Source: Nymphaea colorata
Lineage: Eukaryota > Streptophyta > Magnoliopsida > Nymphaeales > Nymphaeaceae
Direction: 5' to 3'
NCBI RefSeq assembly: GCF_008831285.2
Contig: NC_045144.1
Coordinates: 1,302,001 to 1,366,000 of the forward strand
Length of the DNA stretch: 64,000 bases
Below are positions 4,376 through 62,772 of the stretch, piece by piece (the first letter of the stretch is position 1; each line of letters starts with the position of its first letter). The notes under the pieces were generated by a model that saw only the letters and a program-made list of their open reading frames with translations, had not been told where the DNA came from and did no database searches. The position numbers and the translations under genes are program-made.

Positions 4376-5272
4376 TATGAAAAGAAATTTCACGAAGTTA
4401 GCACATATTCTTCATGGCATGAATAATCAAATTTCTTTAAAGAGAATGCACAAATTAATTGATAGAAAGAATTAGAACATAATTAAAAACATTTTATTGC
4501 AATTTGGTCCCAGAGCTTTTATAACTATTCTGAGAATCTGAACCAAATAACTTAGAAGAGTCCTTCCACCCGCACAGAAAAGCTCAAAAGGGTCGTCTAA
4601 TGATGAGCTTTTGTGGACACCCAAATCAACTTTGAATTAATGAGTTCCATCAACTAGTACAGTTCTGACTTGAAAGACACAGTTCCATCTACTAGTGGAG
4701 TTTTGACTTAAAAGACATTTTAAGTTTCCAAAACTGGTTAGGATCTGTGGAACCAATGGTCTAGCCTGAAAATCAAGTATGGTCAAGGAGAGGTAAAAGC
4801 AAGCTTCATTAGAGCATCACTTTAACAGTATTCAGACAAGCCATTGGACAAAGCTTTAACAAGGTAAAGCTGATTGTACAGCAAGTTTCAGGCCTCAAAG
4901 GAAGTTTGCTCCTAGAAAACCCATGGAAGTCAATATCTGCAGGCTATTACTGTCAGAAGATATGTCTCACACGGAGCTGTCAACATCATTTATCTTCTTG
5001 AATAATGAGATTAGCACATTAAGCAAGAAAAAGGAGTAGCACAACAACAGAGCCCCTAGCTCTACTCACACAAGGATTTCATAATAAAACACTACAATAC
5101 CACATACTATACTAGCAAATATTGCAAACACCATCATGCTTGATATGTTACAGACTTATGGGTTTAAGCTAAATATTTTTATTTAGGCGTTTAGGTCCAA
5201 GCAGCCTACACCAAGCTTTAAGCCATGTCTCACATGCTACTTGATAATGCAAGGACAATTTGGATATTTCAG
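4376..5272. other. Non-coding stretch between the two RadA pieces; inverted-repeat arm starts at 4840
   Basis: No gene recognised. A partly degenerate tandem repeat of about 38 bp (AGTTCCATC.ACTAGT..AGTT) occurs at 4643-4678 and 4681-4716. From 4840 onward the sequence is matched in reverse complement by 61411 and downward, so this is the first base of the homology that can be seen. A short open stretch on the plus strand around 4840-5037 (reading AIGQSFNKVKLIVQQV at its start) has no family I recognise and carries a one-base indel between the two copies. Confidence 0.5.
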
Positions 5273-5494
5273 GTTGCAAGAATGGATAAGAGGCTTAACG
5301 AACTTATTAAGTTGCGCAATTTAAGAATTGCGTTATTCCAAAAGTGGCAGAGAAGTCGTTCAAAGCCATTGACAAAGTGCGTTATTCTAAAAGTGGCAGA
5401 GAAGTCGTTCAAAGCCATTGACACAAGCGGGATAACCACAGTGACTTGTAGCAATCTGAAAGAGGTTCTGAACAAAGTATTTCGGACAGATTAA
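5273..5494 (+). pseudogene. RadA/Sms-like protein, last exon (left copy)
   Basis: A splice acceptor (ATATTTCAG) precedes an exon beginning VARMDKRLNELIKLRNLRI and ending SNLKEVLNKVFRTD with stop TAA at 5492-5494. This is the typical RadA C-terminus (consensus VPRMEKR ... PKSAEKSL ... CKNLKEVI..VF). The reading phase joins exactly to the GELRT exon at 4093-4173, which lies on the other strand. A 49-bp direct duplication (copies starting at 5329 and 5378) repeats the VAEKSFKAID part and breaks the frame. Together with the strand reversal this marks a dead, rearranged gene end. The right copy is at 60757-60978. Confidence 0.8.
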
Positions 5495-6195
5495 GTCCTC
5501 CTTTGCACAACTTCCCTCGACGCCTTTGGTGCAGTGTTGTACATAACAACTAAGGTTGCAAATGGGCCAATGTTATGAAAGGGCTTCACCATTTGCTTTA
5601 TTTTGGTGCGATGTTCATAAAATTTATGGATACAAATGGATCGGATGTTATGGAGGAGCCTCACCATTTACCATTTATTAAATGAATTCAACCATTCTTA
5701 CTGTACTTGGCCGATCCATATTCAACCCGGTTTCTTCCGTACCATCCTGCACTCGATAGCTTTCTTCTGAATGAACGGACTAATACAGACACAGTTTGCT
5801 TCCCCTTGATCGTAACTTTTTTTTTTTAACATTCTGCAAAATATGAGAAACTGCCAAATATCTTTAATTTTGAGTTGCCATGAGAGACGCGATCACCGAT
5901 ATCTGAAATGGATTAAAGTTCAATCAGCGGGCAAACGAAAACTGGCTCCCATTGGCTCACGATCTTTGTAATGGTAATCATTAAAAGGCTGCAACTTTAA
6001 TACGTTTCCTTGAATGTTAGCTGGTACTTCAAGTTCAAGCTAAAACGTGCGTGGACTCCTATGATTTGCGAAGGAGTTTTCACAAAGTAAGACACTTTAA
6101 TGAAATTATTTTATAAAATAACTCTCAATTAACATAATTGAGAGCTCGCGGGAGCTAGGTTGGTTCGCAAAACTATCGAAATCTCTTGATCCGAA
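5495..6195. other. Non-coding stretch between RadA and phosphofructokinase fragments (left copy)
   Basis: No gene seen. It contains a hairpin at 6122-6144 and, at about 6157-6172, a short copy of TAGGTTGGTTCGCA that also occurs inside the phosphofructokinase exon at about 6323-6338. The two gene fragments end here tail to tail. Confidence 0.5.
6122..6144. repeat. Perfect 10-bp inverted repeat downstream of the phosphofructokinase stop (left copy)
   Basis: CTCTCAATTA and TAATTGAGAG are separated by three bases. It lies about 50 bases past the stop codon on the minus strand. It may be a 3' UTR hairpin or a transposon scar; nothing else supports either reading. The mirror copy is at 60109-60131. 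Confidence 0.6.
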
Positions 6196-7815
6196 TTATG
6201 ACGTCGCCGAGAAATTGCCGTCCTCACTCAAGGCCTTCCCGTCTGCCAAGAACATTTGTAGATCTTGAATGCTCGACTCTCGCTTACTCTTGGCTTCTTC
6301 AATGTCCTCTGGGCTGAGGAAGGTAGGTTGGTTCGCAGAGGAAAGCAACCTCGCCCACATACGGTCGGTTATACAGACTTGATTCTGCTTCTCAGTCACA
6401 CGCTGCAAGATCAGGACAATAAAAGCCAGAAATGAGATTCGAATAAATTTCAAACCGAAAAGGAAATTTGACACATTAGACAATCGTGGTGTTTTTCAGT
6501 CACGGAGGAACTTACGTAGATAGGTAAGCATGCCTGCCATTAACAGGACCGACAGTGAAGCCCAAGTATCCAGCCATGGCGCCATGGACAGCACTATGAA
6601 CGAGAAGCGTGCAATAGACGTTGTCTGAAGCATTGCTAGGAATGGCACGAATCATGTACGTGGGATCTGCAGACAAATGCCATCGTTCAAATTTAGTCTT
6701 CTAGATCAATCTTTTGTTTGCATCCAAAGTTGCTTTACTCACATACCTATGTATGTGAGGTTCATTACAATCTTTTCCTTGGCAAAGTGGTCCTGCAATT
6801 CAAAGGAAGACGAGTTTTTTATGGACCTCAAAGACTATTCAACATTGTCACTTACAAGCACTCTGCGTAGGCCTTATCCTCCAGTTGTAATACCTTGATC
6901 TTGTGAGAAAGCCACAGCCCAACGTCAAGAAGGACCTTGTTTCCCGAAGCATCCTTGTGTTCCATGTCGCACAAGTGCTCCTCAATAAGATTCTGCCCAC
7001 CACCTTCTGCTATAACAATAACCATATGACCATTCTCTCTGAGTCTGTGCTCTATGAATTCGAAGAGTCCTCCCCCCGGCCCTTCCAAATAGAATCGCAA
7101 GAGGAGTTTGTCAACAACCAGGCAACATTCGACTGGTGCATAAGACACAAGACTTATTATGTTAAGAAATTTAAAGCATACCACATCTCTGCTAGCCAAC
7201 GTAGAGTACATAGCAATAAATCCTGCAGCATCAAATGTATGACGGAATTAATAATCAGATAGAGAAATTCATTTCATGAATTGAAGCCACTTCAAAAGAG
7301 GGGTTGCATTCTTACGGAGAGAATTCAGACATCTCAAAGAAGGCTCCAACTTCCTATTTGACAGCTACAAAACAATTTGATCTTGGAAAAACTGCACCAA
7401 AAGGCCCGGTGGAGTTGCGGCAGTGAGGTGAATTATGAACCTCTTAGAGTTCAAGTTGTATGAACTACACCGCACTTCAATTCAAAGAAAACCTGAACAT
7501 GAATAAACCAACAGCATACCAGCCCCTCAGCTTGACAAGGCCCACACCATTTTCGCCACTTTCAGCTTCAGACATGCGCTGCGTTAATAGCCCTTTGAGC
7601 CTCTTCAACTGCAGTATCAGAAACCAAATGATTTGTCGATAACCTGAAACAAAGGACACACAAGAGCCAAGTAGCATAAGGATCTACTTGGCTGATATCT
7701 CCAATGGAATAAAGACTGCTTCAATGCGAAGTTGCAAGCATATTACCGCAATCTCATTATCAATAGTCTTTGGAATTCCGACAACTGAAACTTTAAGACC
7801 ACGCCTTTCAATCTC
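6196..7815 (-). pseudogene. ATP-dependent 6-phosphofructokinase, 3' part (left copy)
   Basis: Seven minus-strand exons with GT..AG introns can be placed: 7815-7747 (VVGIPKTIDNEIA), 7643-7520 (KSFGF, TAVEEAQRAINAAH), 7222-7182 ([14 protein letters not shown]), 7132-6894 ([46 protein letters not shown]), 6792-6747 (DHFAKEKIVMNLTYI), 6666-6516 ([38 protein letters not shown]) and 6402-6196 ([19 protein letters not shown], stop). The product would phosphorylate fructose-6-phosphate in glycolysis. The catalytic TIDN Asp is kept. Only about 290 codons are covered against roughly 450-530 for plant enzymes; the GGLCPG nucleotide-binding N-terminal part is absent. Exon 7643-7520 carries extra bases (for example TTTCTGAT for TTTGAT) that shift the frame, and the phase does not join cleanly between the last two exons. 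A broken 3' fragment. Confidence 0.9.
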
Positions 7816-9027
7816 CTGCAGGGAAGAAAGTCCAGAAGTTTAATATTCATGTTACCATAATGCGGTGCAATAAACTACGGTGACTCCATGACCAAGCAAC
7901 ATGAAAAGATAAGCGCAGCGACAAGAGGTTTTATTCCAAACGATGAATTTAGGTTAGAAAGGAAAATACCTGCAGGTATCATGACAACTTGCCCTATCTT
8001 ATTGTAAATTAGTAGTTATAGTTTATACATGGCATGAGGTTTGATAGTATATTTTATCTTTTCATATGCCAACAACTGAAATACTGCACCTTTTCTTGGA
8101 CTACCATTAGGTGGAAAAATATGCATTCATATAGCACAATCACCAAGACATCTATTGCACTCTTCAAAAACAAGAACGAATAGGTGGCAGCAAATTTCTG
8201 AAAAATTTTCTCCACATGCAAATGGGAAGATTAGTTGGTGACATGAAACGAACGTCTCGCATTTGCAAGAGATACTAATCAAACGTTCAACATAGGCAGG
8301 AAGAAGCGAAATGATATACACAAACAAGATTAAAATATTCAACATAAATACACCATGCAACGTAGATAGCTTCTTGTTATCTACATGAGAAAGGAACTTA
8401 TGAACAAGACCTCATCTATTCAATGTTTAACCAAGCTAACAGGCCTTCAGTAAACAAGCCAGATTATAAAGTTCCAGGAGCATGCAAAGACTTTCTTCAT
8501 CCAAACAGCATACAAGAACAAAGAAAAACCCAAACGACAAATGCAACCTAAATCAAGATATTTTGCTCTTTTCTTCATCTTAAGAAAGAAAAAAGCTCAC
8601 AATTGTGAGACATCAAAAAAATTATCTTGATCACAAGGATGCAGCAATCCATTTGGGGTCCGGCAATTGTAATAGAGATAAAAATATCAGTTCCATATAA
8701 AGAGATACAAAGCTAGAAACAGAATCACATCAGTTTGACACAAGCTCCAACCACTTGGACATCTGTAATTGGGTCAACACTAAATAATCACAGGTCATTC
8801 TTTTATATTAGATCATCTAACCACTTGGACCTGGGAGATTGTCCATTCAGCTATAAAATAGGGTACAAGTCATATTCAGCTATAAAATAGCCTACAAGTC
8901 ATGGAAATATGTTGCATGTCATAGGCCAACTAATTTTTTCATTCTCTACTCTCTCTTCAACCTTGAAAATTTCAGCAATCAAAAGTTCTATTTGGCCAAT
9001 TCTTCAGGGAAAGAAAAAATGAGTTTA
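7816..9027. other. Non-coding stretch between phosphofructokinase and phosphate-carrier fragments (left copy)
   Basis: No coding motif recognised. The upstream phosphofructokinase exons that should lie here in an intact minus-strand gene are missing. The open frame at 8127-8360 on the minus strand has no homology I can name. Confidence 0.5.
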
Positions 9028-9536
9028 TTTACATGGAAGATTCCGTGCCCAAAGTGGAGCAAGACCCCTGTAGAAGCTGCAGTTACAAAGGCATTTAGCA
9101 ATTAGAATCAAAGAGATGAACTCAAAGTCTGAAACCATCTTCAGATATACACAAATAACTTCGAGCAATGAACAAAGAAGCTCCTCCTTACCCTGGCAGG
9201 CCTTCAGCTGCATACAATTTTGGAAAGCCATCAACCAATCCTTTAGCATAGTTAGGTTGAGTTTGCACACGAATTTTGACTTCCTCAAAAGGACAGAGGG
9301 CAACATCTGCAATCACTGCTCAACATCTGCAATCACTTGAGCAGATGCACTGCTCAAAAAATAAATCCAAGCTCTCCGCCTCCCTGCGACATTTAGCCCA
9401 AACGCATCAGCATACGTCTTCTTGAAGTATTCATAAAGGCCAAACTTACAACCTCCTTGTGCAAGGCCCATATCCATATAACTTCCCAGCCCAACCTCTC
9501 CAAAGTCCTAGAACCCCTTGCTCCTTCCATAATACA
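9028..9536 (-). pseudogene. Mitochondrial phosphate carrier fragment (left copy)
   Basis: Exon 9536-9192 encodes GLAQGGCKFGLYEYFKKTYA, LSSASAQVIADV, then ALCPFEEVKIRVQTQPNYAK and GLVDGFPKLYAAEGLPG; after a GT..AG intron, exon 9076 to about 9028 gives FYRGLAPLWARNLP. This is the central part of the mitochondrial phosphate/H+ symporter of the mitochondrial carrier family; the carrier signature appears as CPFEEVKIRVQTQ. A 20-bp tandem duplication (ATTGCAGATGTTGAGCAGTG) between VIADV and ALCPF shifts the frame and makes a stop. The region around KLYGY upstream is also out of frame. N-terminal and C-terminal exons are absent. Fragment of about 150 codons against about 350 in the intact carrier. 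In this copy the last exon is intact, unlike the right copy. Confidence 0.87.
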
Positions 9537-9731
9537 CTAAAATCAGAAAAAATGCTATTGTATTTTGCTGGATTCACCTACAAAGAAAAATATCACAAAA
9601 TGAAACACGTTTCAAGCAAAATTCTCTTTCTTTGCTTTACGATTATTTTATGAGTTCGCATTTTTTTTTTTTTAAGCTGAACTGTTCTTCTGGGGGCCGT
9701 TTGATGGCTGGAAATATGAAAACGGAAAAAA

Positions 9732-9757
9732 AATTCCAGAAATAAATTTCTGGAATT
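9732..9757. repeat. 26-bp palindrome (left copy)
   Basis: AATTCCAGAAAT and ATTTCTGGAATT flank two bases. It sits in a stretch rich in GGAAAT/ATTTCC motifs that begins with GGGGGCCGTTTGATGGCTGG near 9690, a form reminiscent of transposon termini, but no matching inverted end was found. Mirror copy at 56507-56532. Confidence 0.6.
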
Positions 9758-10151
9758 GAGGAATAAGAAATAAAATTCCATATTTTCAAAACCAGCTTGT
9801 GTTTGTTAAGTTGGAAATATTTTTCTGGAAAGAAATTTCTTCGTTTGATGGAAATGGTGGAAATGATGAGGAAACACAGGGAAAAGGGTAGTTAAGGCTC
9901 AAGATAAGCATTTACACATCGCATCAAATCTCTCTCTGTAAACAAGCTCAAGACACCTCCACATTTTTTTTCTGGAAACGAGTATGGCAAAAGATTAAAA
10001 CGAATATGGAAATCAAAAGCGTGCTGTTCAACATAAATAAAGCCCCAGGTTTTGTCTAATACCTCCAGTGGCATCAGCGCTGTGGCCTGTGGGGATCACT
10101 GTGTACAGAGAAGAGGGAACATAAGACAAGGGGAAGAAGGGAAGAAAGAGC

Positions 10152-10190
10152 AAGAAGAAGAAGAAGAAGAAGAAGAAGAAGAAGAAGAGA
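10152..10190. repeat. (GAA)n microsatellite (left copy)
   Basis: About 12 AAG/GAA units read directly. The right copy (about 56082-56116) is a little shorter, which is a length difference between the copies. Confidence 0.9.
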
Positions 10191-10666
10191 ACAGCATAAT
10201 TTGTACACAACATTTGCAACAGAGGAAGAAAGCAGAGAACATCATTTGTAGTGCAAAATTTGTGAAATCCAGGCATTCTCACAGCCCATCAATTCTGCAC
10301 TTCCTCCACCATAAACCGATCACATCCAAATCAACAAACAAAATTCAGGCATTCTCAAAGAAAGTAGATAAAAAAAACTATGTTGATCATAGAATACAAA
10401 TAGCCGACCACCGAATCCAGAAAATCAAAAAATCCCCAATTTTCACGACAAACAGCCCGTTCGCAAAGAGAAACCCTAGAAATATCTACCGGATCGACCT
10501 CACCACTGAATAAATTTTTAGAGAAAAAAAAACAAAAAAACTTTTTTCTCAACCGTCCTCCTCGGCAGAGGAAGAGGAAAACGATTGACTGTCGACCGAT
10601 CCACACCAATTCACGCAAAGAAGAGAACTACAGGAGAAGGAGACGGGCGAAACATGAACGAAATAC

Positions 10667-10862
10667 CTTGCTTGGATGCCCTAGCCTCCGAAAAAGGGAG
10701 GTGATTTTCTCTACTAGCTCTTCATCATCTTCTTCGCCTCCACATTCGTCATTGCTTTCCTCCTGACGAAGTGGCTGTCTGATTAGCCCCTTTATTCTTC
10801 TTATTTGTTTCCCATTTTTGGACCCTCCCTGTCCCTGGTTTCCCATTAGTGCCAAAGGTGGA
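10667..10862 (-). pseudogene. Unrecognised acidic exon fused to the patatin-like exon (left copy)
   Basis: On the minus strand the patatin-like exon continues without a splice site into about 196 bp of other sequence, ending in a good donor (AAG|GTATTT at 10667/10666). One frame ends ESNDECGGEEDDEELVEKIT then SLFRRLGHPSK and looks like a real coding exon, acidic then amphipathic; the patatin frame itself reaches a stop after ATSSGGKQ. I do not recognise the source gene. The abrupt change inside one exon suggests a chimeric junction. Confidence 0.45.
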
Positions 10863-11542
10863 TTGCAGAGCGTCCTCCATGGTGTTTCCGGATACAATAA
10901 CTGCACACACTATAGCCCCGAAAGATGAACCAGCTAACAGAGTGTTCTCCTGCAGAGATAACCCTAGTTGAGACAAGATCGGATTATGGAGGGGGAAGAA
11001 AAAAAAAGAAAGAAAGAAGTTCATTATTTAATCGAAGCAAGCACTTCCGAGAACTTATGCGGAATTTGTTCTCAACAAATCATCCGACCAAGAAATCCGT
11101 CAGCACTCAATTTGTCGAAGATCCGAAAGAAATTCAGACCTACGAAGATAAAACTAGGCGGAATTCCCATTTACAATGGGTGCTTTTCCTTGAAAACGGC
11201 TAAAATTTTGACGTTCTCACCAAAGTATCAAATTGCTAGGCAATCAGAAAAGCACACGGTTGGGTCTAAGCATGAGTCAGAACACAGAGAATCACGGCAT
11301 CAAGATCACAGATATAATCCAATTGCAGTTGCACACGACAAAAGCAACACAGAGCGATAAACTCTTTCCCTCTTCATTACCCGAATGTACCCCTTCTCCA
11401 GGACAATCTGCGCGACGCCGAGATGGTAAGGAAACGAAAGCCCCGCAGCGGAGAAGCTGAAGCCGGGGCTCGTAATCTTCGACCGCTCCCTCTCCGCTTC
11501 GACGTCCTTCTCCCTCTGCCCCAGAAGACGGCGGACTCCGCC
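10863..11542 (-). pseudogene. Patatin-like phospholipase fragment, first two exons (left copy)
   Basis: Exon 1 (ending at 11381) encodes SPGFSFSAAGLSFPYHLGV then AQIVLEKGYIR; exon 2 (from 10949) continues in phase with ENTLLAGSSFGAIVCAVIVS and GNTMEDALQ. The GSSFG motif is the GxSxG nucleophile elbow of patatin-like acyl hydrolases, and FSAAGLLFPYHLGVAQ is typical of the plant group predicted to be plastid-targeted. The intron 11380-10950 has GT..AG ends. The catalytic Asp part (DGG motif) is absent, and a stop lies upstream of exon 1 in frame, so no proper start codon connects. An alternative frame beginning MGLASSLLRTRR is open across the same exon. Fragment only. Confidence 0.8.
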
Positions 11543-11746
11543 TCACCGACGATCATGGCAGCCACACCAACTCGATCACCCTCCTCGGAACTCACCAGGA
11601 CGGAACCTCCGCCCGAACGCCGCGTCCTCAGGAGCGAGGACGCGAGGCCCATGAAGAAATCGCCAGTAGCGACGACGAACGACCGACTGGGCAACTAGTC
11701 ACGTGCCTTCTCCTGCACCGTGGCGAATAATCTGAGGGCTTCTTGG

Positions 11747-12139
11747 TAAGGGTGGGCATCGGGCCGGCCCGGCCCGGCCCGATAAAGAACCTTCGGGAAC
11801 GGCCCGACGGGCCGCTGGGTCGGGCCCAGGCCCGGCCCGGATATTTAACCGGTCGGGCCGGGGCCGGATTAAAATAATATTATTTTAAATTTATAAAATA
11901 TTTTTTTTAAGTAAAATAGTATTTATTAATGATAAATATATAATATTAAAATTAAAAAAATATATTTTAATTTTTAACGGGTCAGGCCGAGGCTGACTCG
12001 GGCCGGCATATCAGGCCCGGACCCCGTTAACAGTTTTTCCCGGGCCCGACCCAGCCAACTTTTTCCAGGCCCGGGCCCGGGCCCGAGGCGGGCCGGGTAC
12101 CGGGTACCCGGCGGTGGCCCGGCCCGGTGCCCACCCTTA
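11747..12139. mobile_element. 393-bp hAT-type MITE, GC-rich ends (left copy)
   Basis: Terminal inverted repeats of more than 20 bp (TAAGGGTGGGCAYCGGGCCG at both ends) enclose an AT-rich core. The element is flanked by a perfect 8-bp target-site duplication CTTCTTGG at 11739-11746 and 12140-12147. An 8-bp duplication and this TIR type point to the hAT superfamily. There is no coding capacity. The mirror copy is at 54144-54532, with the duplication as CCAAGAAG. Confidence 0.88.
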
Positions 12140-12618
12140 CTTCTTGGTAGTCGGCAGAAGGAGGGAGTGTTGGCGAAAGGCGCCTTGGAAGCTTCGAGTT
12201 GAAGAAATCTCGTCGCTTGGTCACATTCTCCTTCTGTTTTGTGTTCTCTATTTTATCATTGTGGAGGAACGGCGTGTGTAATTTGTATCGTAGAGATCCA
12301 GGGGAAAACTTGAACGAGGAGGAAATGGCTCCAGTTATATGGACCCGGAACCAAGTTTACGTCCATAAAATTGGTGTTAATTTCATAAATGGGTCATACA
12401 TTTTCGAAAATGTTGTGAACGCTTACTTTTTTTTTTTTCTAAAAGCAACGTAACTTTTATACATCATGAAGATATTGGGATGGACAGCTATGTCTCGCTC
12501 TCTTCTAGTGGTGTAGGCACATTATTGCCCATACCAGCCTTTTAAAAGTTTTTTATTTTTAAATAGAAATATTAAATATTTATTCTTAGATATATATAAG
12601 TGATCTACAAGATTTAAG

Positions 12619-12619
<1 letters not shown>

Positions 12620-12694
<75 letters not shown>
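12620..12694. repeat. (AT)n microsatellite (left copy)
   Basis: About 75 bases of uninterrupted AT; the right copy (53592-53664) has about 73. Confidence 0.95.
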
Positions 12695-12698
<4 letters not shown>

Positions 12699-15172
12699 GT
12701 ATATACAGTATATTTGTGAACGCCAATCGATTTGTCGGTGGAAGAAAACGGAAGAAAAAGAAAGAAGAAAAATGAAAGGAGGTAAGAAAGTCCGATGGAG
12801 GGAGAGAAAAAGTGTTCGCTCTGTGTTAAGCGTCTCCATAAGCTGATTATTAAACAATTTCTCGCAACACATTGTGACAGAGGTGCAAATGATGATTATT
12901 AGACCGTTTCACATTACACGTTGTAACAAAGGTGAAAGTGAGTTGTTATACCACTTCGCACAACACATTGTGACATAGGTGAAAATGATGACATGTGAAC
13001 AACACTTTCGATGATATTTTGAAGTTCAAACCATTGTTACATATAATTGCGGAATTTTAAAAAATAAAAAGAAAAATGTGCAAATTTTGTTTTGTTACTG
13101 AAAATATATTTGTGGGGTTGTTATTGCATTTTGTTCATGTTTTCTTGTTTTCTCCTTTTTTACTTGCATGTCATCATGAATTCAAATTTAAAATTAGAAA
13201 AGGTTTTTTATCATCATTTTAATCATCGTCAAAACATTATTTGGATCATTTTATCTTGTTTTAGTGTTTTTTTATTAATTTTTATCATTTATTTTACTTT
13301 TACGAAATTTCAATTTTTATTTTTCCAAATAAAAATAAATTCTACGAAAGATATCATAAACAACTCCTTAGCACTTGGTGCCCACCATCACACACCAATC
13401 TGTAATTTGTAAACCAAATTCCATCGCGATCTTGAAAACCACCCTAATTCCATCGGCCCAAGCCACAATACATATTTTGCATGTAGATGAAACCTCTTTT
13501 CAATAATATGTCACTAATATGCGATACAGCTAGCCGCCATACTTTCACAGCACTAGAAACATGGTTTACATATAAACAAAAAAATATGCAAAATTATCAG
13601 TTGTCTTTTATAAACAATACATATATTTCACTATAATATCCTACGACGTATGTTCTACTGCCTCAAGGCTTACTCCCGCCTCATTGCTTTTAACAATATT
13701 GATCTAAGTTTTCCTTGTTGCACACATTAAAATTGTCTCACACACACACACCTGCTTATGAAGATATGCACGTGATGTCGCACTGCACCCATATAATGCA
13801 TTTCTCCTTCATTGTCCGAAGATTGAACCAAATTTAATGGTGCCATGCACTTTATAGGGATTAGTGTTATTGGTGCTTTAAATATGCTATATATTCCTTC
13901 TCGACTGGATAGATGTTTCTCGATGAACTTCGATGACACGACCAGTGCACCACGGAAAGCGAATTTGATCCCATAGCGCATCGCCTTGTTTTCTACAGGC
14001 AAGCATTCGCAAGCAAGTGGTTGTTATAAATGTACCTTAAGCTACGGTTTTCAGTGACACAATATATATATATATATATATATTCCAAATGCAATGATAT
14101 GACTGGATTGTGAGGCTTGCTTAGACTTGGTGGAATCCCTCTACTTACATGAAACTATATATATTTGTTCCAAAGCAAATTGTGTTCCCCCTTATAAAGG
14201 AAGAAAAAAAAAGAGTTGTGGCTATAGTGGATAATCTCATTTTAAAACTTAGGTTTTGTACCTAGCTTCAAATTAAAATTCAATTTTTGCAAGAATACCC
14301 TTTGATTTTCACTTCAAACAATCTCTCTCTTGAGTGTGTTCGGTTTGACTTGAGCTCATTGGGGTTTTGACCTAGTGGTCTAATTTTAAATTATACTGAG
14401 TTATAGATTTTTCCATCTATAAATTCAATAATCAAACTTAACTTACACAGATTTAAAAGCCATTGTGTTAAATTAAATTGGAAAGGACTTTTTTGTCCAA
14501 ATTTGATTGAAAATGGGGTTGACTTGATCAAAACCCTCGAATCTATATTGTTCAATTGCATACTTGGCTCAGACAATTTATGAGTTCAATTACATAATTG
14601 AATTGTATAAAACCCTAATTTAGAATTTTATTGATTGAATTGGACTGAGAATGGCAATTTTGTTCCAAAATTGAATTGACTGTATGGTTTGACCATGATC
14701 GACATCCCATTTATGTTTTAACTTCCACAAATTTGACAAGTCTAATAGCATTTGATACTCAAAAACATTTAATTATGTTTTAACTATGTTAAATTTTGAA
14801 ATGAGCTTCAACTGAGCCTAGTCAAGGCATTGTTGGTTCAGTCAAGGATTAATTACGTCCTGTAACTGGATTGGTCAATGGGTACAAACCTGGCCTGTTT
14901 GACTGGGTTCATGTTTGACACAAACTAGTAGATGGGGCAGCACATCACAGTGAGCCTGGTTCAAACACACTTGAAATTAAGTGGGTTTGAGACATGCTCA
15001 TTATGACGTGTAAATGAGGTCAATGCATGCTGGGCTCTTTAAAGCGTGTCTTGATTATTCAAATCTTCCCATTTTTCATGTTAGTTTTGCTTTCTTATTT
15101 TTTTAGATTTTTCAATTATTTTAATCTCTTAGGTCAAAAGGAACCCTTTTTAATTGATTTTAATGAAAGTAG

Positions 15173-15189
15173 CCCCCCCCCCCCCCCCC
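15173..15189. repeat. Poly-C tract (left copy)
   Basis: Seventeen consecutive C; the right copy has 17 G at 51097-51113. Confidence 0.95.
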
Positions 15190-15555
15190 AACACCCCGCC
15201 TTGGGTGGGCCACCCTTGCACATGTAGGCCAGCTAGGGCCTACATGTGAGTTCCACCTGGTGTTCTAAGTCCAGACCATAAATTTGAATTTCGATTTCAA
15301 ATGATAATTGTCATTGGTTTTGAGTTAGAACCTTCATTTTCATAGTTTATGCACCTTAAGGTCTAAGGCTCACTGCTCATGATTTTTCAATAGAATGATG
15401 CACATTTGCAAAGCTGTTTGCAACTTCAGTCAATGGTATATAGGTGAAAGGAGAATTCGGTTTTGGGTGGATATGAACACCCCCCCCCCATTTCTCTCAC
15501 CTAAAGAAAGATCCATGTTTGATTACTCTGCCCAATTATCATTGAAGGATGTTTA

Positions 15556-47000: not shown

Positions 47001-47305
47001 ATGAAAATGAATGATATTAAAGTCATTCATTTGATGTCTTATTGTAAAAATAATATGTTTTACTTATTATTACAATCATAATAAATGATTTGAATCGTTG
47101 AAATCACAAGTTTATATGGATACAAATGGAATCAATGCATTTGTTTGATCTCTTGTATTTAATCCAACGAGTTTAACTTCTTGCTACATCTACATTGAAC
47201 GGTTTAAGGGATCGAAATCACATGTTCCTATCAACATGAGTGAGATTTAAGTGATTCTTTTGATCACACATATTTAATTGAATGTGCTTGACTTATTGTT
47301 ACATT
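44074..47305 (-). repeat. Satellite array block, reverse orientation (right 3)
   Basis: Mirror counterpart of 18980-22210. The orientation switch at about 44073 is the junction CTTCTGATTTTAGTTTAAATG. Confidence 0.88.
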
Positions 47306-47929
47306 CATACAAACTTGTGATTTCTATCCACTAAATCATTGAATGTAGATGTAACAACAAGTTAAGCACATTCAATTAAATATGTGTCATCAAATGAATC
47401 AATTAAATCTCATTCATATTGATACGAGCTTGTCATATCAATCTCTTAGATCGTTCATTATAGAAGTAACTACAAGTCCAACTCATTAGACTAATTACAA
47501 GGGATCAAACTAATGCGTAAATCCCATTTGTACCCATATGAACTTGTGATTTCAATCATTTAAATCGTTCATTATAAATGTAATAACAAGATAAACACAT
47601 TAAGTTAACTATAAGACACCAAATGAATGACTCGAATCTCATTCATTTTCATACAAACTTGTGATTTCAATCTGCTAAATCTTTTAATATAGACGTGACT
47701 ACAAGTTAAACACATTCAATTAAATATGCGTTATCATATAAATCACTTAAATCTCACTTGTATTGGTACGAACTTGTAATTTCAATCCTTTACATCATTC
47801 ACTATACTTGTCACAACAAATTCAACTCATCGGACTAACTACACGTGTTCAAAGTAATGCATAAATCCCATTTGTATCCATATGAACTTGTGATTTCAAT
47901 CATTCATTATAGATGTAACAACAAGTAAA
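47306..47929 (+). repeat. Satellite array block, forward orientation (right 2)
   Basis: Mirror counterpart of 18358-18979. Confidence 0.9.
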
Positions 47930-50729: not shown

Positions 50730-53587
50730 ATAAACATCCTTCAATGATAATTGGGCAGAGTAATCAAACATGGATCTTTCTTTAGGTGAGAGAAATGGGG
50801 GGGGGGTGTTCATATCCACCCAAAACCGAATTCTCCTTTCACCTATATACCATTGACTGAAGTTGCAAACAGCTTTGCAAATGTGCATCATTCTATTGAA
50901 AAATCATGAGCAGTGAGCCTTAGACCTTAAGGTGCATAAACTATGAAAATGAAGGTTCTAACTCAAAACCAATGACAATTATCATTTGAAATCGAAATTC
51001 AAATTTATGGTCTGGACTTAGAACACCAGGTGGAACTCACATGTAGGCCCTAGCTGGCCTACATGTGCAAGGGTGGCCCACCCAAGGCGGGGTGTTGGGG
51101 GGGGGGGGGGGGGCTACTTTCATTAAAATCAATTAAAAAGGGTTCCTTTTGACCTAAGAGATTAAAATAATTGAAAAATCTAAAAAAATAAGAAAGCAAA
51201 ACTAACATGAAAAATGGGAAGATTTGAATAATCAAGACACGCTTTAAAGAGCCCAGCATGCATTGACCTCATTTACACGTCATAATGAGCATGTCTCAAA
51301 CCCACTTAATTTCAAGTGTGTTTGAACCAGGCTCACTGTGATGTGCTGCCCCATCTACTAGTTTGTGTCAAACATGAACCCAGTCAAACAGGCCAGGTTT
51401 GTACCCATTGACCAATCCAGTTACAGGACGTAATTAATCCTTGACTGAACCAACAATGCCTTGACTAGGCTCAGTTGAAGCTCATTTCAAAATTTAACAT
51501 AGTTAAAACATAATTAAATGTTTTTGAGTATCAAATGCTATTAGACTTGTCAAATTTGTGGAAGTTAAAACATAAATGGGATGTCGATCATGGTCAAACC
51601 ATACAGTCAATTCAATTTTGGAACAAAATTGCCATTCTCAGTCCAATTCAATCAATAAAATTCTAAATTAGGGTTTTATACAATTCAATTATGTAATTGA
51701 ACTCATAAATTGTCTGAGCCAAGTATGCAATTGAACAATATAGATTCGAGGGTTTTGATCAAGTCAACCCCATTTTCAATCAAATTTTGGACAAAAAAGT
51801 CCTTTCCAATTTAATTTAACACAATGGCTTTTAAATCTGTGTAAGTTAAGTTTGATTATTGAATTTATAGATGGAAAAATCTATAACTCAGTATAATTTA
51901 AAATTAGACCACTAGGTCAAAACCCCAATGAGCTCAAGTCAAACCGAACACACTCAAGAGAGAGATTGTTTGAAGTGAAAATCAAAGGGTATTCTTGCAA
52001 AAATTGAATTTTAATTTGAAGCTAGGTACAAAACCTAAGTTTTAAAATGAGATTATCCACTATAGCCACAACTCTTTTTTTTTCTTCCTTTATAAGGGGG
52101 AACACAATTTGCTTTGGAACAAAATATATATAGTTTCATGTAAGTAGAGGGATTCCACCAAGTCTAAGCAAGCCTCACAATCCAGTCATATCATTGCATT
52201 TGGAATATATATATATATATATATATTGTGTCACTGAAAACCGTAGCTTAAGGTACATTTATAACAACCACTTGCTTGCGAATGCTTGCCTGTAGAAAAC
52301 AAGGCGATGCGCTATGGGATCAAATTCGCTTTCCGTGGTGCACTGGTCGTGTCATCGAAGTTCATCGAGAAACATCTATCCAGTCGAGAAGGAATATATA
52401 GCATATTTAAAGCACCAATAACACTAATCCCTATAAAGTGCATGGCACCATTAAATTTGGTTCAATCTTCGGACAATGAAGGAGAAATGCATTATATGGG
52501 TGCAGTGCGACATCACGTGCATATCTTCATAAGCAGGTGTGTGTGTGTGAGACAATTTTAATGTGTGCAACAAGGAAAACTTAGATCAATATTGTTAAAA
52601 GCAATGAGGCGGGAGTAAGCCTTGAGGCAGTAGAACATACGTCGTAGGATATTATAGTGAAATATATGTATTGTTTATAAAAGACAACTGATAATTTTGC
52701 ATATTTTTTTGTTTATATGTAAACCATGTTTCTAGTGCTGTGAAAGTATGGCGGCTAGCTGTATCGCATATTAGTGACATATTATTGAAAAGAGGTTTCA
52801 TCTACATGCAAAATATGTATTGTGGCTTGGGCCGATGGAATTAGGGTGGTTTTCAAGATCGCGATGGAATTTGGTTTACAAATTACAGATTGGTGTGTGA
52901 TGGTGGGCACCAAGTGCTAAGGAGTTGTTTATGATATCTTTCGTAGAATTTATTTTTATTTGGAAAAATAAAAATTGAAATTTCGTAAAAGTAAAATAAA
53001 TGATAAAATTAATAAAAAAACACTAAAACAAGATAAAATGATCCAAATAATGTTTTGACGATGATTAAAATGATGATAAAAAACCTTTTCTAATTTTAAA
53101 TTTGAATTCATGATGACATGCAAGTAAAAAAGGAGAAAACAAGAAAACATGAACAAAATGCAATAACAACCCCACAAATATATTTTCAGTAACAAAACAA
53201 AATTTGCACATTTTTCTTTTTATTTTTTAAAATTCCGCAATTATATGTAACAATGGTTTGAACTTCAAAATATCATCGAAAGTGTTGTTCACATGTCATC
53301 ATTTCACCTATGTCACAATGTGTTGTGCGAAGTGGTATAACAACTCACTTTCACCTTTGTTACAACGTGTAATGTGAAACGGTCTAATAATCATCATTTG
53401 CACCTCTGTCACAATGTGTTGCGAGAAATTGTTTAATAATCAGCTTATGGAGACGCTTAACACAGAGCGAACACTTTTTCTCTCCCTCCATCGGACTTTC
53501 TTACCTCCTTTCATTTTTCTTCTTTCTTTTTCTTCCGTTTTCTTCCACCGACAAATCGATTGGCGTTCACAAATATACTGTATATAC

Positions 53588-53665
<78 letters not shown>

Positions 53666-54135
53666 CTTAAATCTTGTAGATCACTTATATATATCTAAGA
53701 ATAAATATTTAATATTTCTATTTAAAAATAAAAAACTTTTAAAAGGCTGGTATGGGCAATAATGTGCCTACACCACTAGAAGAGAGCGAGACATAGCTGT
53801 CCATCCCAATATCTTCATGATGTATAAAAGTTACGTTGCTTTTAGAAAAAAAAAAAGTAAGCGTTCACAACATTTTCGAAAATGTATGACCCATTTATGA
53901 AATTAACACCAATTTTATGGACGTAAACTTGGTTCCGGGTCCATATAACTGGAGCCATTTCCTCCTCGTTCAAGTTTTCCCCTGGATCTCTACGATACAA
54001 ATTACACACGCCGTTCCTCCACAATGATAAAATAGAGAACACAAAACAGAAGGAGAATGTGACCAAGCGACGAGATTTCTTCAACTCGAAGCTTCCAAGG
54101 CGCCTTTCGCCAACACTCCCTCCTTCTGCCGACTA
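50730..54135. other. AT-rich non-coding flank between satellite and MITE (right copy)
   Basis: Reverse complement of 12148-15555. It contains the 17-G tract (51097-51113), a (TA)n run near 52206-52226, a (GT)n run near 52537-52549 and the long (AT)n run at 53592-53664. No gene supported. Confidence 0.6.
53592..53664. repeat. (AT)n microsatellite (right copy)
   Basis: About 73 bases of uninterrupted AT. Confidence 0.95.
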
Positions 54136-54143
54136 CCAAGAAG

Positions 54144-54532
54144 TAAGGGTGGGCACCGGGCCGGGCCACCGCCGGGTACCCGGTACCCGGCCCGCCTCGG
54201 GCCCGGGCCCGGGCCTGGAAAAAGTTGGCTGGGTCGGGCCGGGAAAAACTGTTAACGGGGTCCGGGCCTGATATGCCGGCCCGAGTCAGCCTCGGCCTGA
54301 CCCGTTAAAAATTAAAATATATTTTTTTAATTTTAATATTATATATTTATCATTAATAAATACTATTTTACTTAAAAAAATATTTTATAAATTTAAAATA
54401 ATATTATTTTAATCCGGCCCCGGCCGACCGGTTAAATATCCGGGCCGGGCCTGGGCCCGACCCAGCGGCCCGTCGGGCCGTTCCGAAGGTTCTTTATCGG
54501 GCCGGGCCGGGCCGGCCCGATGCCCACCCTTA
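54144..54532. mobile_element. hAT-type MITE (right copy)
   Basis: Same element as at 11747-12139, 389 bp here. Terminal repeats TAAGGGTGGGCACCGGGCCG and its complement, with 8-bp target-site duplication CCAAGAAG at 54136-54143 and 54533-54540. The few indels against the left copy lie mainly in G/C runs. Because both copies share the same insertion site, the MITE predates the duplication or haplotype split. Confidence 0.88.
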
Positions 54533-54736
54533 CCAAGAAGCCCTCAGATTATTCGCCACGGTGCAGGAGAAGGCACGTGACTAGTTGCCCAGTCGGTCGT
54601 TCGTCGTCGCTACTGGCGATTTCTTCATGGGCCTCGCGTCCTCGCTCCTGAGGACGCGGCGTTCGGGCGGAGGTTCCGTCCTGGTGAGTTCCGAGGAGGG
54701 TGATCGAGTTGGTGTGGCTGCCATGATCGTCGGTGA

Positions 54737-55416
54737 GGCGGAGTCCGCCGTCTTCTGGGGCAGAGGGAGAAGGACGTCGAAGCGGAGAGGGAGCGGTCGA
54801 AGATTACGAGCCCCGGCTTCAGCTTCTCCGCTGCGGGGCTTTCGTTTCCTTACCATCTCGGCGTCGCGCAGATTGTCCTGGAGAAGGGGTACATTCGGGT
54901 AATGAAGAGGGAAAGAGTTTATCGCTCTGTGTTGCTTTTGTCGTGTGCAACTGCAATTGGATTATATCTGTGATCTTGATGCCGTGATTCTCTGTGTTCT
55001 GACTCATGCTTAGACCCAACCGTGTGCTTTTCTGATTGCCTAGCAATTTGATACTTTGGTGAGAACGTCAAAATTTTAGCCGTTTTCAAGGAAAAGCACC
55101 CATTGTAAATGGGAATTCCGCCTAGTTTTATCTTCGTAGGTCTGAATTTCTTTCGGATCTTCGACAAATTGAGTGCTGACGGATTTCTTGGTCGGATGAT
55201 TTGTTGAGAACAAATTCCGCATAAGTTCTCGGAAGTGCTTGCTTCGATTAAATAATGAACTTCTTTCTTTCTTTTTTTTTCTTCCCCCTCCATAATCCGA
55301 TCTTGTCTCAACTAGGGTTATCTCTGCAGGAGAACACTCTGTTAGCTGGTTCATCTTTCGGGGCTATAGTGTGTGCAGTTATTGTATCCGGAAACACCAT
55401 GGAGGACGCTCTGCAA
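54737..55416 (+). pseudogene. Patatin-like phospholipase fragment, first two exons (right copy)
   Basis: Exon 1 ends at 54898 (KGYIR, donor GTAATG); exon 2 starts at 55330 after CTCTGCAG and encodes ENTLLAGSSFGAIVCAVIVS in phase. GSSFG holds the nucleophile Ser. An in-frame stop at 54734-54736 precedes the exon 1 frame, and no ATG follows before the conserved part, so no start can be assigned. The sequence upstream (54540-54736) is GC-rich, like a 5' UTR or transit-peptide region. The homology ends near 55416, after MEDALQ. It lies first in the series patatin, phosphate carrier, phosphofructokinase, all on this strand. Confidence 0.8.
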
Positions 55417-55612
55417 TCCACCTTTGGCACTAATGGGAAACCAGGGACAGGGAGGGTCCAAAAATGGGAAACAAATAAGAAGAATAAAGGGGCTAATCAG
55501 ACAGCCACTTCGTCAGGAGGAAAGCAATGACGAATGTGGAGGCGAAGAAGATGATGAAGAGCTAGTAGAGAAAATCACCTCCCTTTTTCGGAGGCTAGGG
55601 CATCCAAGCAAG
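55417..55612 (+). pseudogene. Unrecognised acidic exon fused to the patatin-like exon (right copy)
   Basis: Mirror of 10667-10862. The exon continues directly from the patatin part and ends at a donor (AAG|GTATTT, 55612/55613). One frame gives GGEEDDEELVEKITSLFRRL. The source gene was not recognised. Confidence 0.45.
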
Positions 55613-56724
55613 GTATTTCGTTCATGTTTCGCCCGTCTCCTTCTCCTGTAGTTCTCTTCTTTGCGTGAATTGGTGTGGATCGGTCGACAGTCAATCGTTT
55701 CCTCTTCCTCTGCCGAGGAGGACGGTTGAGAAAAAAGTTTTTTTGTTTTTTTTTCTCTAAAATTTATTCAGTGGTGAGGTCGATCCGGTAGATATTTCTA
55801 GGGTTCTCTTTGCGAACGGGCTGTTTGTCGTGAAAATTGGGGATTTTTTGATTTTCTGGATTCGGTGGTCGGCTATTTGTATTCTATGATCAACATAGTT
55901 TTTTTTATCTACTTTCTTTGAGAATGCCTGAATTTTGTTTGTTGATTTGGATGTGATCGGTTTATGGTGGAGGAAGTGCAGAATGATGGCTGTGAGAATG
56001 CCTGGATTTCACAAATTTTGCACTACAAATGATGTTCTTGCTTTCTTCCTCTGTTGCAAATGTTGTGTACAATTATGCTGTTTCTTCTTCTTCTTCTTCT
56101 TCTTCTTCTTCTTCTTGCTCTTTCTTCCCTTCTTCCCCTTGTCTTATGTTCCCTCTTCTCTGTACACAGTGATCCCCACAGGCCACAGCGCTGATGCCAC
56201 TGGAGGTATTAGACAAACCTGGGGCTTTATTTATGTTGAACAGCACGCTTTTGATTTCCATATTCGTTTTAATCTTTTGCCATACTCGTTTCCAGAAAAA
56301 AATGTGGAGGTGTCTTGAGCTTGTTTACAGAGAGAGATTTGATGCGATGTGTAAATGCTTATCTTGAGCCTTAACTACCCTTTTCCCTGTGTTTCCTCAT
56401 CATTTCCACCATTTCCATCAACGAAGAAATTTCTTTCCAGAAAAATATTTCCAACTTAACAAACACAAGCTGGTTTGAAAATATGGAATTTTATTTCTTA
56501 TTCCTCAATTCCAGAAATTTATTTCTGGAATTTTTTTTCCGTTTCATATTTCCAGCCATCAAACGGCCCCCAGAAGAACAGTTCAGCTTAAAAAAAAAAA
56601 AATGCGAACTCATAAAATAATCGTAAAGCAAAGAAAGAGAATTTGCTTGAAACGTGTTTCATTTTGTGATATTTTTCTTTGTAGGTGAATCCAGCAAAAT
56701 ACAATAGCATTTTTCTGATTTTAG
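55613..56724. other. Non-coding stretch with TTC microsatellite and palindrome (right copy)
   Basis: Mirror of 9537-10666. It contains (TTC)n at about 56082-56116 and the 26-bp palindrome at 56507-56532. No gene seen; the open frame at 55935-56318 is driven by the TTC run. Confidence 0.6.
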
Positions 56725-57231
56725 TGTATTATGGAAGGAGCAAGGGGTTCTAGGACTTTGGAGAGGTTGGGCTGGGAAGTTATATGGATATGGGCCTTGC
56801 ACAAGGAGGTTGTAAGTTTGGCCTTTATGAATACTTCAAGAAGACGTATGCTGATGCGTTTGGGCTAAATGTCGCAGGGAGGCGGAGAGCTTGGATTTAT
56901 TTTTTGAGCAGTGCATCTGCTCAAGTGATTGCAGATGTTGAGCAGTGATTGCAGATGTTGCCCTCTGTCCTTTTGAGGAAGTCAAAATTCGTGTGCAAAC
57001 TCAACCTAACTATGCTAAAGGATTGGTTGATGGCTTTCCAAAATTGTATGCAGCTGAAGGCCTGCCAGGGTAAGGAGGAGCTTCTTTGTTCATTGCTCGA
57101 AGTTATTTGTGTATATCTGAAGATGGTTTCAGACTTTGAGTTCATCTCTTTGATTCTAATTGCTAAATGCCTTTGTAACTGCAGCTTCTACAGGGTCTTG
57201 CTCCACTTTGGCACGGAATCTTCCATGTAAA
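56725..57231 (+). pseudogene. Mitochondrial phosphate carrier fragment (right copy)
   Basis: Exon 56725-57069 follows the acceptor CTGATTTTAG and contains YEYFKKTYADAFG, FLSSASAQVIADV and, after the 20-bp duplication, CPFEEVKIRVQTQPNYAKGL. A second exon begins at 57185 (FYR). In this copy two G runs are one base shorter than in the left copy (AGGGTC for AGGGGTC, TTTGGCAC for TTTGGGCAC), so GLAPLWARNLP is lost from the frame. N- and C-terminal carrier repeats are missing. Confidence 0.87.
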
Positions 57232-58438
57232 TAAACTCATTTTTTCTTTCCCTGAAAATTGGCCAAATAGAACTTTTGATTGCTGAAATTTCAAGGTTGA
57301 AGAGAGAGTAGAGAATGAAAAATTAGTTGGCCTATGACATGCAACATATTTCCATGACTTGTAGGCTATTTTATAGCTGAATATGACTTGTACCCTATTT
57401 TATAGCTGAATGGACAATCTCCCAGGTCCAAGTGGTTAGATGATCTAATATAAAAGAATGACCTGTGATTATTAGTGTTGACCCAATTACAGATGTCAAG
57501 TGGTTGGAGCTTGTGTCAAACTGATGTGATTCTGTTTCTAGCTTTGTATCTCTTTATATGGAACTGATATTTTTATCTCTATTACAATTGCCGGACCCCA
57601 AATGGATTGCTGCATCCTTGTGATCAAGATAATTTTTTTGATGTCTCACAATTGTGAGCTTTTTTCTTTCTTAAGATGAAGAAAAGAGCAAAATATCTTG
57701 ATTTAGGTTGCATTTGTCGTTTGGGTTTTTCTTTGTTCTTGTATGCTGTTTGGATGAAGAAAGTCTTTGCATGCTCCTGGAACTTTATAATCTGGCTTGT
57801 TTACTGAAGGCCTGTTAGCTTGGTTAAACATTGAATAGATGAGGTCTTGTTCATAAGTTCCTTTCTCATGTAGATAACAAGAAGCTATCTACGTTGCATG
57901 GTGTATTTATGTTGAATATTTTAATCTTGTTTGTGTATATCATTTCGCTTCTTCCTGCCTATGTTGAACGTTTGATTAGTATCTCTTGCAAATGCGAGAC
58001 GTTCGTTTCATGTCACCAACTAATCTTCCCATTTGCATGTGGAGAAAATTTTTCAGAAATTTGCTGCCACCTATTCGTTCTTGTTTTTGAAGAGTGCAAT
58101 AGATGTCTTGGTGATTGTGCTATATGAATGCATATTTTTCCACCTAATGGTAGTCCAAGAAAAGGTGCAGTATTTCAGTTGTTGGCATATGAAAAGATAA
58201 AATATACTATCAAACCTCATGCCATGTATAAACTATAACTACTAATTTACAATAAGATAGGGCAAGTTGTCATGATACCTGCAGGTATTTTCCTTTCTAA
58301 CCTAAATTCATCGTTTGGAATAAAACCTCTTGTCGCTGCGCTTATCTTTTCATGTTGCTTGGTCATGGAGTCACCGTAGTTTATTGCACCGCATTATGGT
58401 AACATGAATATTAAACTTCTGGACTTTCTTCCCTGCAG
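57232..58438. other. Non-coding stretch (right copy)
   Basis: Mirror of 7816-9027. No coding motif recognised; the earlier phosphofructokinase exons expected here are absent. The repeated motif ATTTTATAGCTGAAT occurs at about 57369 and 57397, a short local duplication. Confidence 0.5.
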
Positions 58439-60057
58439 GAGATTGAAAGGCGTGGTCTTAAAGTTTCAGTTGTCGGAATTCCAAAGACTATTGATAATGA
58501 GATTGCGGTAATATGCTTGCAACTTCGCATTGAAGCAGTCTTTATTCCATTGGAGATATCAGCCAAGTAGATCCTTATGCTACTTGGCTCTTGTGTGTCC
58601 TTTGTTTCAGGTTATCGACAAATCATTTGGTTTCTGATACTGCAGTTGAAGAGGCTCAAAGGGCTATTAACGCAGCGCATGTCTGAAGCTGAAAGTGGCG
58701 AAAATGGTGTGGGCCTTGTCAAGCTGAGGGGCTGGTATGCTGTTGGTTTATTCATGTTCAGGTTTTCTTTGAATTGAAGTGCGGTGTAGTTCATACAACT
58801 TGAACTCTAAGAGGTTCATAATTCACCTCACTGCCGCAACTCCACCGGGCCTTTTGGTGCAGTTTTTCCAAGATCAAATTGTTTTGTAGCTGTCAAATAG
58901 GAAGTTGGAGCCTTCTTTGAGATGTCTGAATTCTCTCCGTAAGAATGCAACCCCTCTTTTGAAGTGGCTTCAATTCATGAAATGAATTTCTCTATCTGAT
59001 TATTAATTCCGTCATACATTTGATGCTGCAGGATTTATTGCTATGTACTCTACGTTGGCTAGCAGAGATGTGGTATGCTTTAAATTTCTTAACATAATAA
59101 GTCTTGTGTCTTATGCACCAGTCGAATGTTGCCTGGTTGTTGACAAACTCCTCTTGCGATTCTATTTGGAAGGGCCGGGGGAGGACTCTTCGAATTCATA
59201 GAGCACAGACTCAGAGAGAATGGTCATATGGTTATTGTTATAGCAGAAGGTGGTGGGCAGAATCTTATTGAGGAGCACTTGTGCGACATGGAACACAAGG
59301 ATGCTTCGGGAAACAAGGTCCTTCTTGACGTTGGGCTGTGGCTTTCTCACAAGATCAAGGTATTACAACTGGAGGATAAGGCCTACGCAGAGTGCTTGTA
59401 AGTGACAATGTTGAATAGTCTTTGAGGTCCATAAAAAACTCGTCTTCCTTTGAATTGCAGGACCACTTTGCCAAGGAAAAGATTGTAATGAACCTCACAT
59501 ACATAGGTATGTGAGTAAAGCAACTTTGGATGCAAACAAAAGATTGATCTAGAAGACTAAATTTGAACGATGGCATTTGTCTGCAGATCCCACGTACATG
59601 ATTCGTGCCATTCCTAGCAATGCTTCAGACAACGTCTATTGCACGCTTCTCGTTCATAGTGCTGTCCATGGCGCCATGGCTGGATACTTGGGCTTCACTG
59701 TCGGTCCTGTTAATGGCAGGCATGCTTACCTATCTACGTAAGTTCCTCCGTGACTGAAAAACACCACGATTGTCTAATGTGTCAAATTTCCTTTTCGGTT
59801 TGAAATTTATTCGAATCTCATTTCTGGCTTTTATTGTCCTGATCTTGCAGCGTGTGACTGAGAAGCAGAATCAAGTCTGTATAACCGACCGTATGTGGGC
59901 GAGGTTGCTTTCCTCTGCGAACCAACCTACCTTCCTCAGCCCAGAGGACATTGAAGAAGCCAAGAGTAAGCGAGAGTCGAGCATTCAAGATCTACAAATG
60001 TTCTTGGCAGACGGGAAGGCCTTGAGTGAGGACGGCAATTTCTCGGCGACGTCATAA
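58439..60057 (+). pseudogene. ATP-dependent 6-phosphofructokinase, 3' part (right copy)
   Basis: Exons: 58439-58507, 58611-58734, 59032-59072, 59122-59359, 59461-59506, 59587-59737 and 59851-60057 (stop TAA 60055-60057), with consensus GT..AG introns. Conserved plant-type motifs include [51 protein letters not shown] and [10 protein letters not shown]. Frameshifts in exon 58611-58734 are shared with the left copy. In addition GGGCCGGGGGAGG here has one G fewer than the left copy, which breaks the FYLEGPGG frame. The N-terminal third of the protein is missing. It cannot encode an active enzyme as it stands. Confidence 0.9.
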
Positions 60058-60756
60058 TTCGGATCAAGAGATTTCGATAGTTTTGCGAACCAACCTAGCT
60101 CCCGCGAGCTCTCAATTATGTTAATTGAGAGTTTTTTATAAAATAATTTCATTAAAGTGTCTTACTTTGTGAAAACTCCTTCGCAAATCATAGGAGTCCA
60201 CGCACGTTTTAGCTTGAACTTGAAGTACCAGCTAACATTCAAGGAAACGTATTAAAGTTGCAGCCTTTTAATGATTACCATTACAAAGATCGTGAGCCAA
60301 TGGGAGCCAGTTTTCGTTTGCCCGCTGATTGAACTTTAATCCATTTCAGATATCGGTGATCGCGTCTCTCATGGCAACTCAAAATTAAAGATATTTGGCA
60401 GTTTCTCATATTTTGCAGAATGTTAAAAAAAAAAAGTTACGATCAAGGGGAAGCAAACTGTGTCTGTATTAGTCCGTTCATTCAGAAGAAAGCTATCGAG
60501 TGCAGGATGGTACGGAAGAAACCGGGTTGAATATGGATCGGCCAAGTACAGTAAGAATGGTTGAATTCATTTAATAAATGGTAAATGTGAGGCTCCTCCA
60601 TAACATCCGATCCATTTGTATCCATAAATTTTATGAACATCGCACCAAAATAAAGCAAATGGTGAAGCCCTTTCATAACATTGGCCCATTTGCAACCTTA
60701 GTTGTTATGTACAACACTGCACCAAAGGCGTCGAGGGAAGTTGTGCAAAGGAGGAC
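60058..60756. other. Non-coding stretch between phosphofructokinase and RadA fragments (right copy)
   Basis: Mirror of 5495-6195, with the CTCTCAATTA/TAATTGAGAG hairpin at 60109-60131. No gene seen. Confidence 0.5.
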
Positions 60757-60978
60757 TTAATCTGTCCGAAATACTTTGTTCAGAACCTCTTTCAGATTGC
60801 TACAAGTCACTGTGGTTATCCCGCTTGTGTCAATGGCTTGAACGACTTCTCTGCCACTTTTAGAATAACGCACTTTGTCAATGGCTTTGAACGACTTCTC
60901 TGCCACTTTTGGAATATACGCAATTCTTAAATTGCGCAACTTAATAAGTTCGTTAAGCCTCTTATCCATTCTTGCAAC
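60757..60978 (-). pseudogene. RadA/Sms-like protein, last exon (right copy)
   Basis: On the minus strand the exon starts at 60978 after ATATTTCAG and encodes VARMDKRLNELIKLRNLRIA, YIPKVAEKSFKAID, a duplicated out-of-frame segment, and CSNLKEVLNKVFRTD with stop TAA. The first copy of the duplicated part reads as true RadA sequence here (YIPKVAEKS), because this copy has GCGTATATTCC where the left has GCGTTATTCC. The preceding RadA exons seen at 4093-4375 would lie beyond the gap at 61412 and are not present on this side. Confidence 0.8.
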
Positions 60979-61411
60979 CTGAAATATCCAAATTGTCCTT
61001 GCATTATCAAGTAGCATGTGAGACATGGCTTAAAAGCTTGGTGTAGGCTGCTTGGACCTAAACGCCTAAATAAAAATATTTAGCTTAAACCCATAATCTG
61101 TAACATATCAAGCATGATGGTGTTTGCAATATTTGCTAGTATAGTATGTGGTATTGTAGTGTTTTATTATGAAATCCTTGTGTGAGTAGAGCTAGGGCTC
61201 TGTTGTTGTGCTACTCCTTTTTCTTGCTTAATGTGCTAATCTCATTATTCAAGAAGATAAATGATGTTGACAGCTCCGTGTGAGACATATCTTCTGACAG
61301 TAATAGCCTGCAGATATTGACTTCCATGGGTTTTCTAGGAGCAAAACTTCCTTTGAGGCCTGAAACTTGCTGTACAATCAGCTTTACCTTGTTAAAGCTT
61401 TGTCCAATGGC
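60979..61411. other. End of the right copy up to the gap
   Basis: Mirror of 4840-5272. No gene recognised. The homology to the left copy continues right up to the first N, so its true end is not visible. Confidence 0.6.
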
Positions 61412-62592: not shown

Positions 62593-62772
62593 CTTCCTTC
62601 CAGGTTTCCCTGGTCATGGGCTGGGCTCGTCTCTACTAGATGGGCCGGCTCCTCGCCGTTGGCACCTCATAGATTGTATTGGGATGCCATGGCGTCTTCC
62701 TCAACAACAGCAAGTTGGCGCGACAATCTACACCGACTCTCTGATCGCATCCCCAGATTGGGCAGAATTTGG

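Follow-up and report, generated by a model that had tools for sequence, protein, structure and literature searches.

Is the large inverted duplication near one end of scaffold C7 of Nymphaea colorata a true palindrome, a second haplotype placed backwards, or the same sequence assembled twice? The question was addressed in a window of 64,000 nucleotides, i.e., the whole stretch of DNA analysed (C7:1302001-1366000; assembly of 407.8 Mb in 783 contigs). What looks like a giant palindrome is most likely an artefact of assembly, not a real feature. Left uncorrected, such an error would double 24 kb of flank and satellite and create a false palindrome, readable as gene conversion or hairpin biology, along with false homopolymer "alleles".

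Geometry of the inverted pair

The original prediction, made from the letters of the window, had described a near-perfect inverted duplication bounded by gaps, and this description was confirmed. Positions 4840-29112 are the reverse complement of 37192-61411 (99.65% over 24,287 columns), the piece 29213-61411 (32,199 bases) is flanked by two gaps of exactly 100 N each, and the homology reaches the last base before the second gap, with 61411 pairing with 4840. Both copies run from the same flank, of which about 10.8 kb before the satellite is common to the two, into the same satellite, from about 15.7 kb. BLAST of the window returned this as a single inverted match (4840-29112 with 61411-37192; 5 mismatches, 81 gap letters). 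In an anchored alignment the two copies agreed in 24,201 columns and differed by 5 substitutions and 76 indels (one base in 73, two bases in two and four bases in one); the longest exact block covered 5,085 columns. With MAFFT the substitution count for this pair was 17, of which 12 sat no more than a few bases from an indel. Letters N were confined to the two gaps (Table 1).

Out-of-register inverted matches longer than 1 kb were also obtained (n = 36), the best reaching 97.2% over 1.7 kb and 96.4% over 3.7 kb. Since these were weaker and the pair shares about 10.8 kb of flank, the register of the inverted match is unique, and chance or satellite homology alone is excluded as its source. Beyond the gaps, positions 1-4839 and 61512-64000 had no match to other parts of the window (E 1e-5), their sole matches at that threshold belonging to a 52-base repeat inside 63397-63509.

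The left copy, too, stops at its own contig end in the middle of the homology, at 29112. Both homology boundaries are thereby contig ends, each of a different contig, and the arrangement is a dovetail overlap: once the right contig is flipped, 24.3 kb of it coincide with the end of the left one, and its remaining 7,979 bases (37191 down to 29213), all satellite, extend beyond. The earlier argument that a palindrome would not end at a scaffold gap is weak alone, as assemblers may also break at repeat boundaries; the stronger form is that the two boundaries lie on two different contigs, in dovetail order. The inverted look would need only a wrong orientation during scaffolding, contig orientation being arbitrary.

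Table 1. Coordinates of the two copies, the gaps and the zones of differences in the window
Feature	Positions	Strand	Description
Left overlap copy	4840..29112	+	Terminal part of the left contig; flank up to ~15.7 kb, satellite thereafter
Scaffold gap	29113..29212	.	100 N
Satellite exclusive to right contig	29213..37191	-	7,979 bases; past the left contig's end after flipping
Right overlap copy	37192..61411	-	One end of the 32,199-base right contig, reversed
Scaffold gap	61412..61511	.	100 N
Zone 1 on right copy	51788..61411	.	Equals left-copy 4840-14500; 41 indels, 0 substitutions
Middle of overlap	14500..25899	.	3 one-base indels in 11.4 kb
Zone 2, last ~3.2 kb of left contig	25900..29112	.	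32 indels and 5 substitutions

Kind and position of the differences

The few SNPs and indels between the copies had been taken to fit two alleles of one locus. This did not hold: SNPs were nearly absent and the differences were almost all one-base indels, with 5 substitutions versus 76 indels clustered toward contig ends. Both BLAST and the anchored alignment left 21.6 kb (4840-26458) free of any substitution, and four of the five substitutions fell in the last 470 bases of the left contig. Nearly all differences (78 of 81) lay within 9.7 kb of the right contig's end or about 3.1 kb of the left contig's end. Runs of at least three equal bases hosted 48 of the 73 one-base indels, against a background of 21% (20,000 random positions). 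In zone 1, losses on the right copy accounted for 36 of the 41 indels; differences there were densest 3.9-5.7 kb from the right contig's end and not at the very end, which weighs against unmerged contig ends as the explanation.

Real paralogues of the locus provided a control. The module starting at 5233 recurs on the same scaffold near 0.21, 0.23, 0.61, 0.83 and 24.74 Mb, and four fetched modules were compared with positions 5234-15500. They showed substitutions and gap openings of 59 and 13 (3,994 columns), 164 and 30 (7,983), 183 and 57 (10,215), and 81 and 25 (10,042), that is, 3.2-5.5 substitutions per gap opening, as summed over BLAST blocks of at least 300 columns, large indels that split blocks not being counted as gaps. 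Over the same interval the window pair had 0 substitutions and 37 indels (anchored alignment, in agreement with BLAST under the paralogue settings), and it differed from each of the four paralogues with Fisher p values of 6e-18 to 1e-24. Judged from these sequences, ordinary mutation is not the cause of the differences between the arms. Comparing the substitution-to-indel ratio of a suspect pair with that of real paralogues of the same locus, and asking which copy is odd near which contig end, make up a cheap test that needs no reads.

The paralogues also told which copy is odd. In zone 1, where sites were judged by length with one to four paralogues per site (four paralogous stretches in all), they backed the left copy at 32 of 41 sites and the right copy at 2, while 3 were undecided and 4 had no paralogue; site 12620, a TA run whose end lies outside the compared stretch, was counted as undecided, and sites 10285 and 10291 are probably one event. 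The reverse was found in zone 2: of its 37 sites, the other satellite units (29213-37191) supported the right copy at 22 and the left copy at 4, the remaining 11 being ties. Sites decided by at least five units numbered 14 for the right copy versus 1 for the left, and 8 of the 22 sites favouring the right copy rest on one to four of eight units. Among the ties and weak votes of zone 2, where the right copy has no base, the left copy's base mostly differs from the other units. Twenty-five single bases were absent from the right copy in this zone, 24 of them within two bases of a left-copy substitution relative to the other units (background 13%) and 18 at the exact base of such a substitution (background 2.8%). 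This pattern may be either the trace of one faulty column in both copies or that of one consensus dropping columns where reads of different units disagreed; such a coincidence would not be expected of independent alleles.

The junction at the edge of the module separates the window from its paralogues in another way. Relative to the window, all four fetched modules carry the counterpart of block 3228-5049 in inverted orientation, and their 185-base match to 5049-5234 lies about 4.1 kb away. Among the copies compared, only the right copy crosses 5233 without interruption, matching 5000-9000 as a single block at 100% (rounded). As the join near 5233 is common to both window copies and absent from the other modules, the two descend from, or are, one locus. 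Among the compared copies, the window arrangement at 3228-5234 is the odd one.

Readings of the second copy

Overlapping contig ends left unmerged, with consensus errors (homotype false duplication), combined with an error of orientation would, on the sequence comparisons above, very probably be the best fit. Both arms would represent one locus assembled twice, from reads of that one locus. The assembler would have broken in or near the satellite and left unmerged two contigs overlapping by about 24.3 kb, and the scaffolder would then have joined the 32.2 kb contig to its neighbour the wrong way round across a standard gap of 100 N, so that a dovetail overlap took on the look of an inverted repeat. 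The differences would be consensus errors: single bases lost from the right contig within its outer 10 kb and, towards the end of the left contig, incorrect bases, indels and omitted variant columns over the final 3 kb of the overlap. The original prediction of a haplotype contig placed backwards thus kept its artefact and its reversed piece and lost its two alleles (5 substitutions versus 76 indels, and private forms mostly on one copy at the judged sites); its warning that sequence is counted twice, one locus with one contig backwards, is well supported.

Known counterparts of this situation have been described. In the available portion of PMC8081667, homotype duplications occur near contig boundaries, among them dovetailing overlaps that come out of scaffolding as tandem copies with a gap, overlapping contig boundaries being given as a cause of false duplication. 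The part available of PMC9516828 lists gaps between copies and low depth as marks of false duplication. The window pair resembles homotype false duplication, as far as these two texts describe it, in its dovetail at contig boundaries, its assembly gap between the copies and its copies differing by consensus errors; judged by the kind and position of the differences and by the paralogue comparison, these would be errors rather than variants. It departs from the outcome described there, tandem copies with a gap, in being inverted, which needs a further orientation error and was treated as an addition to the homotype duplication and not as a defining feature. Orientation is more difficult for shorter contigs according to the portion available of PMC7672694, and the right contig resembles the misoriented short contigs of Hi-C scaffolds treated there, being 32 kb long with an orientation that conflicts with the sequence overlap, a comparison which presumes Hi-C scaffolding of this assembly. 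Several points weigh against unmerged contig ends. The tied and dissenting sites of zones 1 and 2 do so, as do the two other gaps considered below. Poor consensus near contig ends could affect a genuine second arm as well, and for an overlap that an assembler failed to notice, 24 kb is long; homotype duplications often have the length of a corrected read, going by the available descriptions, for which 24 kb is long though not impossible.

Heterotype false duplication, with the right contig as the other allele (a haplotig) placed backwards, likewise predicts a near-identical, collinear, gap-bounded second copy of one locus, and it was the major kind of duplication in the earlier assemblies surveyed, according to the part available of PMC9516828. 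Allelic variants are expected between such copies, and practically none were found here: the substitutions number 5 overall against 76 indels, with none in the 21.6 kb of 4840-26458, and private forms sit on one copy or the other by position. We consider the haplotig improbable; it would hold only where the two haplotypes show practically no difference at this locus, and sequence alone could then not separate it from the unmerged overlap. Two alleles as the source of the differences were rejected on the near-absence of substitutions and on the judged sites of zones 1 and 2. A slightly fainter prospect is a real, young palindrome whose arms, at least 24 kb long, either formed recently or have been homogenized by gene conversion. 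The region does rearrange, as the module is duplicated several times on C7 and its block 3228-5049 is inverted in four fetched copies, and contigs may be broken by assemblers at repeat boundaries; yet each boundary coincides with a contig end, in dovetail order, the homology is still running where the left contig stops at 29112, and the window pair has almost no substitutions where other paralogues are rich in them. The sequence is not contiguous through arms and spacer but interrupted at 29113-29212 and 61412-61511, and such gaps leave a palindrome unproven without disproving it. Such a palindrome would be very young and would have arisen near one chromosome end, within a cluster rich in satellite whose modules have been duplicated and inverted repeatedly, with arms identical bar consensus errors; we hold this to be quite unlikely. 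Fold-back chimeric long reads yielding a palindromic contig might also give near-identical inverted arms, but here the arms belong to two different contigs, with a gap and 8 kb of satellite that has no partner lying between, and with contig orientation arbitrary no fold-back is needed; this origin appears extremely improbable.

The same error as that proposed for the unmerged contig ends was not found at two other gaps of the scaffold (C7:215893 and C7:818568; at the second, one side only was covered, 2.5 kb to the left). The first (215893-215992, 100 N) lies between the two copies of a direct duplication, C7:202548-209255 and 223299-230000, which are spaced about 20.8 kb apart. Unlike the window pair, these copies differed by 97 substitutions in 5,820 columns, and they are either a real tandem duplication or two haplotypes.

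Contents of the window

Neither the window nor 60 kb of its flanks had an Rfam hit at the gathering score, and Pfam gave no family for two of the three open frames searched. The remaining one belongs to a retroelement pol on the minus strand (107-2528) that spans two overlapping open frames and carries a reverse transcriptase domain (RVT_2, E 4.8e-70); we take the element to be Copia-type. A minus-strand fragment at 6852-7247 is weakly similar to ATP-dependent phosphofructokinase (E 0.009); among open frames of at least 130 amino acids it appeared in the left copy only, the right copy being without one C of a run inside it. At its start (61520-64000) the next contig falls within a dispersed repeat family and therefore offers no unique anchor; this stretch had at least 46 matches, the best other one, among the matches listed, being C435:30346-32787 at 98%.

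The satellite (15675-29112 and 29213-50611) is built of subunits of about 115 bases, trimers of about 340 bases and a higher-order unit of about 980 bases. Its orientation, as judged by eye from the repeat units, seems to switch near 18385, 18982 and 22600 in both copies. The module of flank and satellite is repeated near both ends of the 25.5 Mb scaffold C7, including at 1.31 Mb, and on the small contigs C182 and C778, mostly at 95-100% identity.
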